64,000 nt of DNA from Candidatus Aminicenantes bacterium JdFR-78 (GTDB lineage: Bacteria; Acidobacteriota; Aminicenantia; JdFR-78), in the NCBI GenBank assembly GCA_002010665.1, contig MTON01000024.1, forward strand, positions 140,999 through 204,998, read 5' to 3'. The notes beneath the pieces were generated by a model. It was not told the origin of the DNA. It was given only the letters and a program-made list of their open reading frames with translations, and did no database searches. Shown in pieces: positions 2,542 through 42,690 of this stretch. Numbering within the stretch: the stretch's first letter is position 1; each line of letters opens with the position of its first letter. A program made the translations under genes and the position numbers.

Positions 2542-5271
2542 ATGTTCAAGAGACTCTTAAAGATTATTTTATCATTAAATTTAATTGTTATAAGTTTTAT
2601 TTTCTTTGTTTTTGCTGAGAAGCAAATAATCACAATAGATGATATTCTAAAAGTAGACAGAGTTTCTGATTTGCAAATTTCTCCGGATTGTAAATATGTT
2701 GTCTGGGTTCAAAGTAAGCCAGATTTTAAAAAAGATAAAAGAATCAATCATTTATGGATGGCTTTTCTCAAGGAAAAAATTGAACCCATTCAATTAACTC
2801 GGGGTGAAAATTCAAACTGGTCTCCACGATGGTCTCCTGATGGTAAAAGACTTGCATTTCTTTCTGACAGAAAGAAAAAATCTCAAATATTTATTATGCC
2901 AATTTTAGGAGGTGAGCCAGAACAGGTTACAGATGTTAAAATGGGAATTATCAGATTTGCATGGAGAAATAACCATTCTATTATTTTTTCTGCCCGTGAA
3001 AATGAATATTTTTATGAAAAAAAAGCAAAAGAAAGGAAAGACGATGCAAAAGTTATTGATGATATTGAAGCCTTTTATCCAATAAGGCTTTTTGAAATTA
3101 ATCTCAAAGATAAAAAAATAATAAGAATAACAAAAAATAAAGACAGAATTCAGAATTTTGCTATTTCACCGAATGGAAATTGGGCTATCACGATGCATAT
3201 TGATACACCATTATATGAGGTGGAAGCAAAACATAGACCAAAATATTTTCTTATTAATCTGAATGACTATACTGTGAAAGAAATATGGAAAGAAAAATAC
3301 TTTAGCCCTACTCGCTTCCAATGGTCTTATGATAGCAGGAAAGTATTTCTAATCGAAGAAAAATCAAATTATGAAGAGAAAAGAGCACCTGGTATTCCTT
3401 TTTTATATGAATATAATTTGGAAAAGAATAAATGCCAATTAATTCCAATTAATTGGGAAAAAGGTATAGGGGAGATATATGGAAGAATCTTTGATGCAGA
3501 AAAGAATAAAATTGTTACATCATTAGCTAATGGGGTTATTAATCCTTTAATTGTTCTCGAAAGGTCCCAAAAGTCAGATAAGTGGAGAATTTTCAAAATT
3601 AATCATAAAATGGCAGCAAATATCAGTAACCATGATCTTGGAAAAGATGGTAAAACATTTGTTTTTATCCATTCAACATCGAGCACCCTTCCTGCACTAT
3701 ATTGTGGGGAATTGAGTAAAAATAAACTAATAAATGTAAGAAAACTAGTTCAATTTAATAAACACTTAAAGAACAAATTTATAGCTAAATCAGAAATTAT
3801 ACGATGGAAATCAAAAAATGGCAGAGAAATTGAAGGAATTCTTTATTATCCAAAGGATTATGAGAAAGGTAAAAGATATCCTCTTATAGTGAGTATTCAT
3901 GGAGGACCATCAGCGTATGATCCTGATTGGTTTACGCTTTCATGGGGAGATTATCCACATCTTTTAGCTGGCAAGAATTGTTTTGTTTTATTTGTTAATT
4001 ATTCTGGAAGTTCAAATTATGGTCTTGAATTTTTAGAGTCAATTTTTGGAAAATATTATGAATTAGAAATTCCAGATATTTTAAGTGGCATAGATTATTT
4101 AATTGATAAAGGACTGGTTGATCCTGATAAATTAGGTTTAATGGGCTGGAGCAATGGGGCAATCCTTTCTATTGGTCTAGTAGTGGAAACAGATCGTTTT
4201 AAAGTAGCATGCTGTGGGGCAGGTGATGTAAACTGGATCAGTGATTATGGTAATTGCCGTTTCGGGCCTCAATTTGACAATCTTTATCTCGGTGGTCCTT
4301 TCAGGGAGAAATTGGATGTATATATTAAAAAATCACCCATTTTTAGGCTGGATAGAGTTAAAACACCAACTTTAATTTTATTTGGAGATAAAGATACTAA
4401 TGTTCCAACAGAGCAGGGTTTCGAACATTACAGGACTCTTCAACAGATAGGCAAAGTTCCTGTTAGATTTGTTCTTTTTCCTGGAGAACCACATGGTTTT
4501 AGAAGGATTTCACACCAGAGAAGAAAAATAGAAGAGGAACTGGCATGGTTTGATAAATATTTATTCGGGAAAGAAGAAAAGAAAAATAAAGCTTTAAAGA
4601 AAGGCTCTCCTTTAGATATAGCTCTCAAAAAAGATTTTAAATATGATGAGGAAGGTAATTTAGGGATAATTATTAATGGAATATTAGTTCCAGAAACAGT
4701 AAGAATAGGAAAAATCGAAGTGGGCAGGTTTGAAGTTACAAGAGCTCAATTTGCTCAATTTCTTAGAGAAAACAAAGATATAAATACATCTTCTATTGTT
4801 GGGTGGACAGAAAAAGGGTTTAAGCCTGGAACACAAAATTATCCAGTTTCAGGTATAGATTTCGAAATAGCTATTAAATATTGTAAATGGCTATCAGAGA
4901 AAACAGGGGAAAAGTATCGATTACCGAAGGAAAAAGAAATGAAAGAATGGTTAGAAAAATGCACAGGAAACGAAAATACTCTCTGTTACTGGGCTGGTTA
5001 TAATTTATCTCCAGATGAAGCAGATATGCTGGAAGAGAAATTTCAGGAGCTTGAGAAAACTCAAGGTTTAATCTTACCTGTAGGTTATTTCAATGCCTCT
5101 TTTGGCAAGATTTATGATTTGAACGGAAATGTTTCTGAATGGTGTGTTAAAGAAAATGGTGAAGGTATTATTCTTGGACTTTCAGCCCGGCATATTTGTG
5201 ACAAAAAAGAACCTTACCGGTCTCCTTCCTTGGAATATGTAGGATTTCGTATTCTAAAAGAAACAAAATAA
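2542..5271 (+). CDS. S9-family prolyl oligopeptidase/acylaminoacyl-peptidase fused to a C-terminal FGE-sulfatase (SUMF1-like) domain
   Basis: Signal peptide; WD40-like beta-propeller repeats (WSPRWSPDGKRLAFLSD); catalytic GWSNGA, FGDKDTNVP, GEPHGF; C-terminal VGRFEVTRAQFAQFL ... YRLPKEKEMKEWL ... YDLNGNVSEWC ... VGFRI. Confidence 0.85.
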   Translation: MFKRLLKIILSLNLIVISFIFFVFAEKQIITIDDILKVDRVSDLQISPDCKYVVWVQSKPDFKKDKRINHLWMAFLKEKIEPIQLTRGENSNWSPRWSPDGKRLAFLSDRKKKSQIFIMPILGGEPEQVTDVKMGIIRFAWRNNHSIIFSARENEYFYEKKAKERKDDAKVIDDIEAFYPIRLFEINLKDKKIIRITKNKDRIQNFAISPNGNWAITMHIDTPLYEVEAKHRPKYFLINLNDYTVKEIWKEKYFSPTRFQWSYDSRKVFLIEEKSNYEEKRAPGIPFLYEYNLEKNKCQLIPINWEKGIGEIYGRIFDAEKNKIVTSLANGVINPLIVLERSQKSDKWRIFKINHKMAANISNHDLGKDGKTFVFIHSTSSTLPALYCGELSKNKLINVRKLVQFNKHLKNKFIAKSEIIRWKSKNGREIEGILYYPKDYEKGKRYPLIVSIHGGPSAYDPDWFTLSWGDYPHLLAGKNCFVLFVNYSGSSNYGLEFLESIFGKYYELEIPDILSGIDYLIDKGLVDPDKLGLMGWSNGAILSIGLVVETDRFKVACCGAGDVNWISDYGNCRFGPQFDNLYLGGPFREKLDVYIKKSPIFRLDRVKTPTLILFGDKDTNVPTEQGFEHYRTLQQIGKVPVRFVLFPGEPHGFRRISHQRRKIEEELAWFDKYLFGKEEKKNKALKKGSPLDIALKKDFKYDEEGNLGIIINGILVPETVRIGKIEVGRFEVTRAQFAQFLRENKDINTSSIVGWTEKGFKPGTQNYPVSGIDFEIAIKYCKWLSEKTGEKYRLPKEKEMKEWLEKCTGNENTLCYWAGYNLSPDEADMLEEKFQELEKTQGLILPVGYFNASFGKIYDLNGNVSEWCVKENGEGIILGLSARHICDKKEPYRSPSLEYVGFRILKETK

Positions 5272-5312
5272 ATAAGATTTTATATCTAATTTAATTTTTT
5301 TCGATTCTAAGA

Positions 5313-5340
5313 TTGACAAAGTCCCATTTTTTGCTATAAT
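5313..5340 (+). promoter_or_regulatory. Consensus sigma70 promoter of the TonB-receptor operon
   Basis: TTGACA (5313-5318), 16-nt spacer, TATAAT (5335-5340). Confidence 0.85.
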
Positions 5341-5342
5341 TG

Positions 5343-5371
5343 TGTGTTACAAATTTTAAAAAAGTAACACA
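5343..5371. promoter_or_regulatory. Putative NikR operator
   Basis: Perfect inverted repeat TGTGTTAC-aaattttaaaaaa-GTAACACA directly downstream of the -10 box. It matches the GTGTTAC-N13/14-GTAACAC NikR motif as I recall it from comparative genomics. A NikR homologue is encoded at 42274-42690. Confidence 0.75.
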
Positions 5372-5384
5372 AATGGAGGATCAG

Positions 5385-7238
5385 ATGAAAACAAAAATAA
5401 AAAGAATCATCATATTAGTAATAATTTTAATTTTTGGTATATCTCAGAATTTCTTACTCGGAAAAGAAAAAGAAAAAAAGGAAGAAAAACCGGTTTATAT
5501 AGGGAAAGAAAAGATTGTTGTAACTGCAACTAAAACACCCCACTCTTTAAAGGATGTCCCGATTACCACAGTCATAATTACTAGGGAAGAAATTGAAAAA
5601 ACAAATGCACAAACAGTAGGGGATATATTGAGATGGCTCCCTGGCGTTTATATTCAAACAAATGGTTTCTCGAGAGCAACTGTTAAAATTCATGGTTTAC
5701 CATCCAAATATACTCTTGTATTGGTGGATGGACAGAGGCTTAAAGGAAGACATGCTGAAAGTATTGATTTAAGTCATATTCCTATTGATATGATTGATAG
5801 AATAGAAATTATAAAAGGTCCTTCATCAGTCTTATATGGAAGTGACGCAGTTGCAGGAGTAATTAATATAATTACTAAATCTGCTCCTAAAAAATCTACA
5901 TTTGATGGTTATGTTTCCTATGGAACAGGGAATACTGTAAGAGCAATGCTGGGTTATGGTTCCCAGATTGGAAAATTTCGTTATCTAATTACTGGAAGTA
6001 AAAATAAGTCAAATAATATGGGTGCAGGGTATGAATATGATGGATACAATGTGCAAGGGAAATTTGAATACAATTTTAATGAAAGTAATAAAGTTACCTT
6101 CACCACAGGATATTTTAATGAGAAAGGTGACTACCTTGATGACGAAAAGTTTAATTTGATTTTAAATTGGAGAATAGGGATAGATAAGGTTTCTTATTTA
6201 GAGGTAAAAGGTTTTCATTATGATTCTCACCGCCTCGATGCACGACCCGGACGTGCTCCAAGAACATGGGATGAAAAGACAACAAGAGCAGAAGTGCAAT
6301 ATGTAAGAATGTTAGGAAAGAGTAATTTACTTACCTTGGGATTGGAAAGTCGATATGATGAAATTAAATATACATTGATTGAAGGAAAGAAACATCAAAT
6401 TATTAACAGTCTCTTTGCTCAAGATGAGATAAAGTTGATTAAACCATTGACTTTAATTTTGGCTTTCAGATTAGACAATCATGATAAATGGGGGACTGAA
6501 CTTGTACCAAAGGCTGCTATATTTTTTAAATTAAGTGAAACTACTAACTTACGAGCATCCATTGGTAAAGGATTTCTTGCACCAACTTTATCTCAGTTAT
6601 ATGAACAACAGTATTATCATCCTTGGGGTGGTGGATTCTGGCTTGGAGGAAATCCTGATTTAAAGCCAGAGACTTCTACTGGATATACTTTTGATATTGA
6701 GCATTATTTTACAAGTAATTTTACAACTCGAATTTCACTTTTTAAGAATAACCTTAGGAATATGATCACTTCTGAAAGAACAGATGAAATAATAGATGGT
6801 AAACCGGTTTTCCGTTCAATAAATATCAATAAAGCTTATAGCCAGGGAATAGAATTAGAAGTTAAGATTAATTTGAATAAGGCATTTGTAGGAGTGCTCG
6901 GCTATACTTTTCTTAAAACACAAAATATCTCTTCAGGAAAGGAATTCCCATATAGTCCTCGTCACACATTTAATTTTGTTTTAAATTATTCTAATCAAAA
7001 AATTGGTCTCAATTTTAATATATTAGGAAAATATTTAGGAAAAAGATTCACAAATACATCTAATACTCAAAGTATAGACGAATGTTATTTAGTGGATATA
7101 AAAATTATTAAAAAAATATATAGAGATACAGGCTTTTTTATAGCCGTGGATAATTTATTTAATGAAAAAATTGAAAAAGAGAGTAAATATTTCAGACAAG
7201 GAAGGACTTTTACTGCTGGTATGAGAATGCATTTTTAA
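5385..7238 (+). CDS. TonB-dependent outer-membrane receptor, candidate nickel receptor
   Basis: TonB box-like KIVVTATKTP, plug domain (VGDILRWLPGVYIQTNGFSRATVKIHGLPSKYTLVLVDGQRLKG...GPSSVLYGSDAVAGVINIIT), C-terminal aromatic barrel end (MRMHF). Start set at MKTKIKR (5385), preceded by GGAGGA; the ORF's TTG start at 5340 would lie inside the promoter. Confidence 0.9.
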   Translation: MKTKIKRIIILVIILIFGISQNFLLGKEKEKKEEKPVYIGKEKIVVTATKTPHSLKDVPITTVIITREEIEKTNAQTVGDILRWLPGVYIQTNGFSRATVKIHGLPSKYTLVLVDGQRLKGRHAESIDLSHIPIDMIDRIEIIKGPSSVLYGSDAVAGVINIITKSAPKKSTFDGYVSYGTGNTVRAMLGYGSQIGKFRYLITGSKNKSNNMGAGYEYDGYNVQGKFEYNFNESNKVTFTTGYFNEKGDYLDDEKFNLILNWRIGIDKVSYLEVKGFHYDSHRLDARPGRAPRTWDEKTTRAEVQYVRMLGKSNLLTLGLESRYDEIKYTLIEGKKHQIINSLFAQDEIKLIKPLTLILAFRLDNHDKWGTELVPKAAIFFKLSETTNLRASIGKGFLAPTLSQLYEQQYYHPWGGGFWLGGNPDLKPETSTGYTFDIEHYFTSNFTTRISLFKNNLRNMITSERTDEIIDGKPVFRSININKAYSQGIELEVKINLNKAFVGVLGYTFLKTQNISSGKEFPYSPRHTFNFVLNYSNQKIGLNFNILGKYLGKRFTNTSNTQSIDECYLVDIKIIKKIYRDTGFFIAVDNLFNEKIEKESKYFRQGRTFTAGMRMHF

Positions 7239-7297
7239 ACTAAGGATGGAAAGATTTGATCTTAAACAAAAAATAAGAAATCAAAGGAGGTAAAAAA

Positions 7298-7993
7298 ATG
7301 AGAAAAAAAATTTTTATTATAACTTTTCTTCTTATTGGATTGCATTTCATGAATCAAATTTCTTTATCTCATTCAATGTGGATAACCATCAAGAATTACA
7401 AACTTAAAGTTGGAGAAGAAACTTCGTATTTTATTGGATACGGGCATAAATATCTTTCTCCAGAACATTGGGTTATGAATCTGGAAAGGAATTATTGGAA
7501 TATATTTAAAAAAGCTACATTAATAGACCCTGATGGAGTAAAATTAATCTTAAAACCTGCAAAAGGTTCAGGAAAATTTATGGTAAAAAAAGAAGGAGTT
7601 TATATTCTGGGAGTGAAATCTGAAAGAAAAGCAGGGGAGCCCTATGGTCCTTCAGGTAAATACGCCAAAGCTATAATTCAGGTGGGAAAAAAAGATAAAG
7701 GTTTTTCTCATTTTTTTGGGCATAGAATAGAAATCATTCCTTTGGAAAATCCAGCTAAAATCAAACCAGGAGATTACCTTACTGTCAAAATTATCTTCGA
7801 AGGGAAGCCATTATCAACCTTTGTTTATGCTACTTACGCAGATTTTAAACCGGAAAAAGATGCATTTCCAATAATGGCTAAGAGTAATCAAGAAGGAATT
7901 GCAAAAATTAAAATTTCTAATAAGGGCGAATGGCTTATTTATGTCAATCACAAAGTGGATTATTCAGCTGTTTTGACTTTTGAAGTAAATTAG
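7298..7993 (+). CDS. DUF4198 family periplasmic protein (nickel-transport associated)
   Basis: Signal peptide then HSMWITIKNYKLKVGEETSYFIGYGHKYLSPEHW; SD aaaggagg; in line with the receptor gene. Confidence 0.75.
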   Translation: MRKKIFIITFLLIGLHFMNQISLSHSMWITIKNYKLKVGEETSYFIGYGHKYLSPEHWVMNLERNYWNIFKKATLIDPDGVKLILKPAKGSGKFMVKKEGVYILGVKSERKAGEPYGPSGKYAKAIIQVGKKDKGFSHFFGHRIEIIPLENPAKIKPGDYLTVKIIFEGKPLSTFVYATYADFKPEKDAFPIMAKSNQEGIAKIKISNKGEWLIYVNHKVDYSAVLTFEVN

Positions 7994-8416
7994 ATGAAAA
8001 TAAAATTAATGAAACAAAATGATAATTTTCTAAAAAGAGCAATTGAATTTCATGGACATTTAGGGCCATATTTAGTTTTGGGTCTAAAAGCAGGCAATTA
8101 TGCTAATGAAATACTAGGAAAATCTCCCTTTGAAATGAAGGTTATTATAGAGACAATTCCATCTCCTCCTCAATCATGTTTTGCAGATGGTATTCAATTT
8201 TCAACAGGTTGCACGTATGGTAAAAGAAATATTACTATTGTGAGAGGGAAAGGCTTAAGAGTTAGATTGAAGAAGAAAGGCAAAAAACTCACGCTTATTC
8301 TTAAAAAAGAAATTATGGATAAAATAAAGTCACTTCTTTCTGATAAAAAATTACTCGAAAAATTAGCTTTTGAATTATATTCAAAAAATATAGGAGAACT
8401 TTTTGATATAAAATAG
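7994..8416 (+). CDS. FmdE-like protein (short, single-domain)
   Basis: FLKRAIEFHGHLGPYLVLGLKAGNYANEIL ... CFADGIQFSTGCTYGKRNI matches the FmdE family; starts immediately after the preceding stop codon. Confidence 0.8.
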   Translation: MKIKLMKQNDNFLKRAIEFHGHLGPYLVLGLKAGNYANEILGKSPFEMKVIIETIPSPPQSCFADGIQFSTGCTYGKRNITIVRGKGLRVRLKKKGKKLTLILKKEIMDKIKSLLSDKKLLEKLAFELYSKNIGELFDIK

Positions 8417-8420
8417 ATTC

Positions 8421-9905
8421 TTATTCACATACTCTTATCTGATTTCGGCCTTCTCTTTTTGGTCGAAAGAGAGCTGTGTCTGCTTTGGTAATTAATTCAT
8501 CAAGGGTTTTAGCATGGACAGGGAAAGTTGCTATACCTGCACTAATAGTAAGTTTTCCAGCCGATGGTTTTTCTTTTGAAAAAATATAATTTTCAATTTT
8601 AACCCTTACCCTATCAATTACCCTTAAGCTCTGGTATGCATCTGTATTGGGCATAATTATTGCAAACTCATCGCCCCCATATCTTGCAACAATATCACTT
8701 TTTCTGACATTATTCTTAATTATTTGAGCTAATTCATAAAGTGCTTTATCACCTGCCTTATGACCAAATGTATCATTGTATTCTTTAAAAAAATCTATGT
8801 CTAATAAAACCACCGTTAAGAACTGATCAGATCTTTTTGCTCTCTCAATTTCTTGTTCAAGTCTATTATAAAAATACCTATAATTGTATAAATCAGTCAA
8901 TTCATCCGTTATTGAAAGATGATGAAGTTTTTGATTGGTTAAATATAATTCAAAAATAATACCTAAATAGCTTGCTATGGAAGTAAAAATTTCCAATTCA
9001 TGATCAGAAAAATCATTCAGTTTTTTACTCTCTAAATTTATAACACCAATTACTTTGTTTTCGACTTTAATTGGAACACACAGCTCAGATTTTATATCTC
9101 TATCGAGACTTATATATCTCTTATCTTTACTCACATCCGGAATAATTATACTCTTCCCTGTTTTAGCAACCCATCCTGTTATTCCTTTACCCAGAGGTAT
9201 TCTTGCTTTTTCTTTAAAATAATCTGGATAAACATAAAAAGGCTCAAGAATTTCGTCCTTCTCATTTAAAAGCAGAAAGGCTACTTTTGAATAGCCCATT
9301 TCTTTTACAATTAAGCCATGAAGTTTTTTAATCATATTTTCTAAGGTGTTCTCTTTTGATATGGCTTTTGTCATTTCTCTGAATATGTAGATTTCTTTTT
9401 CCAATAATTTATTGTGAAAATTAAGATATTCTAAAACAATCCATTTTCGTATACTTTGAAAATAATCTGAAAGCGAAGCTTTCTTTTTAGCAGAAATTTC
9501 TCTCAAAGGGCAATTAATTCCTAAAAGAAATCCTATAAATTTTTTTTCCTCTGTTAAAAAAGGAAAAAAAACAAAATCGGTTGCATTTTGAAATTTATTC
9601 CTAAAAAATTTATAAAGTGTATTTGAAGAATCTTTTTCGGTTAATTTTCTTAATATTTTTCTCTTTGGAATGAATTGCTTCTTTAAAGAAGGAAAAACAA
9701 TAATTTCTTTTGATGTTAATAACTCTTTAAATTTTTGTTTCTCAATTAGGATATAGATTAGAATTTTTTCACAGCCTGTTTTCCTTTTTATTTTATATAA
9801 GATTTCATTTAAAGCTTTTTTATTTTTTGAATTAACAAAGTCATAAAAGGAACCTGAAATTCTTCTGAGGTAAGTTTCCTTATCCCCTTTGCTTAAATAA
9901 TCCAT
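8421..9905 (-). CDS. GAF-domain diguanylate cyclase
   Basis: GAF-like region (GKGITGWVAKTGKSIIIPDVSKDKRYI) followed by a GGDEF domain (DELTDLYNYRYF ... ARYGGDEFAIIMP). Confidence 0.9.
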   Translation of the reverse strand: MDYLSKGDKETYLRRISGSFYDFVNSKNKKALNEILYKIKRKTGCEKILIYILIEKQKFKELLTSKEIIVFPSLKKQFIPKRKILRKLTEKDSSNTLYKFFRNKFQNATDFVFFPFLTEEKKFIGFLLGINCPLREISAKKKASLSDYFQSIRKWIVLEYLNFHNKLLEKEIYIFREMTKAISKENTLENMIKKLHGLIVKEMGYSKVAFLLLNEKDEILEPFYVYPDYFKEKARIPLGKGITGWVAKTGKSIIIPDVSKDKRYISLDRDIKSELCVPIKVENKVIGVINLESKKLNDFSDHELEIFTSIASYLGIIFELYLTNQKLHHLSITDELTDLYNYRYFYNRLEQEIERAKRSDQFLTVVLLDIDFFKEYNDTFGHKAGDKALYELAQIIKNNVRKSDIVARYGGDEFAIIMPNTDAYQSLRVIDRVRVKIENYIFSKEKPSAGKLTISAGIATFPVHAKTLDELITKADTALFRPKREGRNQIRVCE

Positions 9906-42273: not shown

Positions 42274-42690
42274 ATGAGTGAACTTGTAAGATTTGGAATA
42301 TCCATTGATCATGATTTAATCAAAAAGTTTGATGACCTGATCAATAAAATAGGCTATAAAAATAGATCTGAAGCTATTAGAGATTTAATAAGAGAGCGTC
42401 TCGTTGAAGAAGAATGGAAAAAAGGAGAAGAAACAATTGGTATTATCAGCCTTGTTTATAATCATGAAATCAGAGAACTGACAGATAAACTTACAAATAT
42501 TCAACATAAGTATTATAATTTAATTATTTCCTCTACTCACATTCATTTGGATGAGCACAACTGTCTTGAAGTTATTGTGGTTAGAGGAAAAAGTGACTTA
42601 ATAAAAAAAGTGGCAGAACAATTAATCAGCACAAAAGGGGTAAAACACGGTAAATTATCAATGACCACGACTGGTAAAGAAATTAAATAA
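42274..42690 (+). CDS. nikR: Nickel-responsive transcriptional regulator NikR
   Basis: Ribbon-helix-helix ([39 protein letters not shown]) plus ACT-like nickel domain with [20 protein letters not shown]. Start set at ATG 42274 with AGAGG upstream (ORF track TTG start lies at the -35). Confidence 0.92.

Follow-up and report, generated by a model that had tools for sequence, protein, structure and literature searches.

A predicted NikR-repressed nickel uptake operon of an Aminicenantes bacterium includes an FmdE-like protein of the HGHxGP clade

In the 64,000-nucleotide stretch of Candidatus Aminicenantes bacterium JdFR-78 DNA analyzed here (the window), a promoter and a predicted NikR operator precede genes for a TonB-dependent receptor (TBDR), a DUF4198 protein, and an FmdE-like protein. 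We consider it likely that these genes form a nickel-starvation operon under repression by Ni-NikR, and that the FmdE-like protein acts as a cytosolic nickel carrier toward hydrogenase maturation. The case for linking the operon to the NikR regulon is strong at the sequence level, where it draws on the promoter, the operator, the gene order, NikR itself, the conservation of the box at orthologous operons, and a second box at a permease gene; the FmdE-like protein is probably a cytosolic nickel carrier. With less assurance, we also lean toward the broader reading that the HGHxGP proteins are a dedicated nickel-handling family of bacteria and archaea, which would be under NikR from Aminicenantes to Bathyarchaeia, with the archaeal NikR reading GTRTTAC-N14-GTAAYAC. 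A published link is confirmed and extended for the TonB-DUF4198 half of the operon; what is new here is the FmdE-like protein, a member of the HGHxGP clade. The features are the following.

5313 to 5340, plus strand: sigma-70-type promoter TTGACA-N16-TATAAT (12/12 match)
5343 to 5371, no strand assigned: predicted NikR operator TGTGTTAC-N13-GTAACACA, an exact match to the published NikR consensus (PMC545781)
5385 to 7238, plus strand: TonB-dependent outer-membrane receptor, 617 amino acids, predicted nickel-chelate importer (PF07715/PF00593)
7298 to 7993, plus strand: DUF4198 periplasmic protein, 231 amino acids (PF10670, 3e-31)
7994 to 8416, plus strand: FmdE core-domain protein of the HGHxGP clade, 140 amino acids, predicted nickel-binding (PF02663, 4e-21)
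42274 to 42690, plus strand: nikR, predicted regulator of the operon (NF003381, 210 bits, cut-off 105)

Promoter, operator, and regulator

The promoter, made up of TTGACA (5313 to 5318), a 16-nt spacer, and TATAAT (5335 to 5340), is the sole 12/12 match within 5270 to 8600, in agreement with the preliminary description. The inverted repeat reported to follow it has perfectly symmetrical 8-bp arms separated by 13 nt, as claimed, but the gap between the end of TATAAT at 5340 and the start of the left arm at 5343 is 2 nt rather than 3. Its core, GTGTTAC-N13-GTAACAC at 5344 to 5370, exactly matches the consensus GTGTTAC-N13/14-GTAACAC predicted in 2004 for NikR of delta-proteobacteria (PMC545781), and the predicted consensus box overlaps the promoter. 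The expected transcription start falls inside the left arm, and the repeat therefore holds the repressor position that had been proposed for it. The exact palindrome has a single match in the 2.53-Mb genome, the chance expectation being about 0.0008 per genome (Markov-1 model, window composition, spacers of 13 or 14). When two mismatches were allowed, the genome gave 10 boxes versus 6 in the control, and these matches are mostly due to chance. Two candidates for further boxes, at C23:6530 and C1:89695, were rejected, both lying inside coding genes. The gene upstream of the promoter (2542 to 5271) codes for an unusual fusion of an S9 peptidase with an FGE-sulfatase (sulfatase-modifying factor-like) domain.

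The NikR homologue noted earlier in the window is genuine: besides its score at twice the NF003381 cut-off, it matches 2bj1 (E=2e-47) and keeps the ligand motif QH-x13-HIH-x5-C intact, and thus a NikR with intact nickel ligands is encoded in the same genome as the box.

The box and its operons across the phylum

A scan of related genomes, suggested in the preliminary description, linked the box to NikR phylum-wide. The exact box occurs in 17 of 297 genomes of the phylum, versus 3 of 297 for the backward pattern, and in the same class it was found in 10 of 33 genomes, with the backward control in 0 of 33; NikR is encoded in 16 of the 17 exact-box genomes versus 46 of the 280 others (p=3e-11). 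Many of the phylum boxes lie just upstream of TonB receptors, beside nikR, or upstream of CbiM-type transporters, and some sit elsewhere (cytochrome, sulfotransferase, and a few ambiguous cases). At two loci (L023, 8188 to 9657, and L024, 7169 to 8314, in genomes G216 and G201), a NikR box is located upstream of a gene-nikR pair, and the gene paired with nikR in L024 encodes a methyltransferase-domain protein.

Receptors of the class that are 57 to 75% identical to that of the window head operons including NikM, together with NikL in four of them. The order TBDR-DUF4198-NikL-NikM is found in L021, L304, L306, and L307, and L305 presents TBDR-DUF4198-NikM with a nikL-sized gap in which the ORF filter called no gene. 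L021, preceded by the exact box, has the full run TBDR-DUF4198-NikL-NikM-NikQ-NikO, with CbiQ and the ATPase at its end; NikO-like ATPases lie farther downstream in L305 and L307, and a small gene of 90 to 101 amino acids 3' of NikM in L304 to L307 was read by eye as NikN-like. The box is kept in all three orthologous operons with readable promoters (exact in L021, with one mismatch in L305, and with two in L307), and nikR is present in each of the three genomes (G146, G020, and G232, respectively); the loss of the palindrome from orthologous operons that keep nikR, which had been named as evidence against the regulation, is thus not what these operons present. L304 and L306 share the same first genes and were left out of this count, as their sequence ends before the promoter. 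Since fmdE is absent from the orthologous operons, its place in that of the window is lineage-specific, and there it occupies the slot of the relatives' inner-membrane transporter genes.

Nickel or cobalt

In the genome of the window, no CbiM/NikM was found. A one-mismatch box, GTGTTAT-N13-GTAACAC, is located 17 nt before the ATG of a gene for a His-rich permease on another contig (G000:C5), whose family match is borderline (PF13386, 5e-5, below the cut-off) and for which PDB phmmer gave no match; this permease is likely the inner-membrane nickel step. The genome encodes an [NiFe] hydrogenase and hypA, which shows a demand for nickel, and the Prismane/CODH-type domain PF03063 was not found in it.

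CbiM/NikM-type ECF proteins handle nickel or cobalt, and BtuB-like models match the receptor (TIGR01779, E=8e-63, far below the cut-off), as would suit an operon that imports cobalt and feeds B12 rather than hydrogenase. We regard this as very improbable, given the presence of the NikR box and NikR, the NikL-family subunit in the orthologous operons, the [NiFe] hydrogenase with hypA, and the lack of any cobalamin riboswitch or other Rfam match in 4800 to 8700. The NikR-repressed nickel uptake operon predicted at the outset gains support from the phylum-wide NikR linkage, from the box at orthologous NikL-NikM operons, and from the second box at the permease.

The receptor and the DUF4198 protein

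Domain searches confirmed both the coordinates and the identity of the three genes first described as encoding a TonB-dependent receptor, a DUF4198 protein, and a 140-amino-acid FmdE-like protein. The receptor contains Plug (1e-28) and barrel (6e-43) domains. In the DUF4198 protein, the cleavage site SLS-HSMW, read by eye, makes His25 the likely new N terminus after signal cleavage, with His50 as the second histidine, and both are invariant among seven homologues (the window protein and six relatives). The protein thus combines PF10670 membership, an N-terminal histidine after cleavage, and a second conserved histidine. According to a 2025 study (PMC12537917), a DUF4198 family member binds nickel with a Kd of 18 nM through an N-terminal and a second histidine, and TonB and NikR neighbors were reported; the retention of the two histidines of this site, as published there, sustains the earlier association of the window's DUF4198 protein with nickel. 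The PDB phmmer search with this protein gave no usefully named relative.

The ribosome-binding site of the DUF4198 gene is strong, and the ATG of the FmdE-like gene abuts the DUF4198 stop codon (TAGATG) and has no clear ribosome-binding site of its own, which suggests that the two are translationally coupled. The following gene (8421 to 9905, minus strand) is convergent, so that the operon ends at the FmdE-like gene.

The FmdE-like protein

The protein belongs to PF02663 (75.9 bits, cut-off 22.9) and matches the FmdE fold, its model (pLDDT 92) having 2gvi and 2glz as best PDB fold matches. The HGHxGP proteins form a distinct core-only FmdE clade (support 100/99), whose signature replaces FHGHxC with FHGHxGP, with the loss of one metal-ligand cysteine. 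No variation is seen among 53 clade members at His20, His22, and Cys62, nor at Asp65, Gln68, and Thr74. The full His-His-Cys-Cys site of 2GLZ and 2GVI is not present, the third ligand cysteine being a glycine clade-wide, and the metal site of the clade may therefore be weaker or different; this does not set the protein outside the family, since PF02663 also includes 3D00, in which the site is likewise incomplete (PMC2954224). In 2GLZ, a core-only member, the crystal site holds mixed Zn/Ni and is formed by two histidines and two cysteines, and FmdE family genes mostly adjoin metal-transporter genes (PMC2954224, 2010). No fmd/fwd catalytic subunits were found in the operon or its flanks, and the protein does not qualify as a formylmethanofuran dehydrogenase subunit E. 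To our knowledge, structures of FmdE proteins have been solved, and their role outside methanogenesis operons is not known. We found no published FmdE-NikR link among the papers searched.

Because an obvious signal peptide is missing from the window protein, a cytosolic location is likelier than a periplasmic one, and a cytosolic carrier is favored; signal peptides are present in its three closest relatives, from the same class (Aminicenantes, 53 to 56% identical). These relatives are solitary genes without accompanying nik genes, and the box is missing from their promoters. NikR-repressed genes are made under nickel scarcity, so that storage or detoxification is unlikely for the FmdE-like protein and capture or delivery fits better.

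The main rival to a cytosolic carrier keeps NikR-controlled uptake and makes the FmdE-like protein an enzyme acting on the imported chelate, either to modify it or to release its nickel. It can appeal to the ligand of unknown identity that in 2GVI is 1.8 A away from Cys61, a conserved residue (PMC2954224), to the invariant Asp65, Gln68, and Thr74, which exceed the needs of a plain metal site, and to the placement of FmdE in Bathyarchaeia, with an ECF S-component-like protein on one side and DUF1893 on the other. However, no catalytic family was recognized for the protein, and FmdE of this clade occurs with ECF, Znu-type ABC, and TonB transporters, a variety that argues against one fixed chelate; we therefore hold the enzyme to be rather unlikely.

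The HGHxGP clade in other bacteria and archaea

Clade loci were collected by a genome-contig scan and their neighborhoods analyzed. A nikR gene lies within 3 kb in 5 of 29 HGHxGP loci versus 0 of 51 classical FmdE loci (p=0.005). The arrangements include a nikR-ZnuA-fmdE-ABC operon in Bipolaricaulota, the order larB-fmdE-CODH/ACS in Omnitrophota, and a TBDR with a Znu-type metal ABC transporter and FmdE in Fischerbacteria (L075, where there is no clear NikR palindrome), and nikR or HypA/B adjoins the clade fmdE in Bathyarchaeota; NCBIfam gave only generic ABC matches on the mixed neighbors.

In Bipolaricaulota, GTAGCAC-N13-GTGCTAT overlaps the nikR start in L090 (1560 to 1586) and L097 (8618 to 8644), with identical arms at the two loci, and may possibly be a variant NikR operator. 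In four Omnitrophota loci (L076, L085, L092, and L096), larB (NF033503, 282 bits in L092) is directly 5' of the clade gene, followed by the CODH/ACS delta subunit and RACo.

The clade is present in 88 of 257 Bathyarchaeia genomes. Among 71 loci from 70 genomes (G460 being represented twice; 333 kb), 29 carry a GTRTTAC/GTAAYAC palindrome with up to one mismatch, and all 32 sites have the N14 spacer; spacers of 10, 12, 13, 15, 16, and 18 gave no site, those of 11 and 17 one each, and the reversed-half control none. In 23 of the 71 loci nikR is found within 2 kb, and four genomes have an exact box at 12 to 17 nt from the fmdE match. Three layouts recur: a box directly 5' of fmdE; box-nikR-fmdE; and a box flanked by nikR and a divergently transcribed S-component-like gene, with fmdE and DUF1893 behind the latter. 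Genome-wide, the exact pattern was found in 47 of 257 genomes versus 8 for the backward control among the matches listed, and counts from these related species are not fully independent. Occurring beside NikR in archaea too, the FmdE family is a good nickel-handling candidate, and it is chiefly this archaeal nikR and box linkage that lends independent support to the earlier proposal of the FmdE-like protein as a nickel component.

The ECF S-component-like membrane protein and FmdE form a recurrent operon in seven Bathyarchaeia loci (L228, L229, L230, L224, L205, L215, and L250), usually with nikR divergent to it and a NikR-type box in the intervening gap or close by. DUF1893 (TM1506, PF08973) joins it in L205, L215, L224, L228, L229, and L250 (Pfam-tested in L205, L228, and L250, by eye in the others) and is a candidate further nickel component. 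At a further Bathyarchaeia locus (L159, G406:C13:112), the gene behind a NikR-type N14 box encodes a multihaem cytochrome c.

These neighborhoods also bear on whether FmdE is a passenger, that is, a chance neighbor with no nickel role. Its nearest bacterial relatives are solitary and the orthologous nickel operons do without it, but NikR-type boxes and nikR recur beside the clade in Bathyarchaeia and Bipolaricaulota, and the DUF4198-FmdE stop-start overlap suggests coupled translation; on balance, we judge a passenger improbable.

Proposed mechanism and comparison with known systems

In the mechanism that we favor, NikR would be off the DNA when nickel is scarce, and the TonB receptor would import a nickel chelate into the periplasm, where the N-terminal histidine of DUF4198 would capture Ni2+. 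The His-rich permease would then move nickel across the inner membrane, after which the FmdE-like protein would bind cytosolic nickel through His20, His22, and Cys62 and carry it toward hydrogenase maturation, for which HypA is present. With sufficient nickel, Ni-NikR would cover the transcription start and block the operon.

A single FmdE clade tied to a nickel sensor in bacteria as well as in archaea would thereby acquire a testable function. The analysis also predicts nickel targets for lineages that have not been cultivated, among them a NikR operator in Bathyarchaeia, and it proposes two further candidate nickel components, the ECF S-component-like protein and DUF1893.

The box, its spacing, and the kind of target (nikMNQO, nikK, nikL) are the same here as in the delta-proteobacterial NikR regulons (PMC545781); different from those, the targets here begin with a TonB receptor and DUF4198, an FmdE-like gene is included, and the Bathyarchaeia box reads GTRTTAC-N14-GTAAYAC. 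As in the TonB-DUF4198-NikR neighborhoods of PMC12537917, a DUF4198 protein with an N-terminal histidine lies beside a TonB receptor with NikR in the genome, whereas the accessible text of that study does not mention FmdE, and, compared with the neighborhoods it describes, the window operon has no ECF transporter and its genome no CbiM. Finally, the core-only FmdE 2GLZ of Desulfitobacterium hafniense (PMC2954224) has the same fold as the window protein (TM 0.73 by query) and shares both histidines and the second cysteine, but the window protein belongs to a separate, NikR-linked clade in which HGHxGP stands in place of FHGHxC and one cysteine ligand has been lost.
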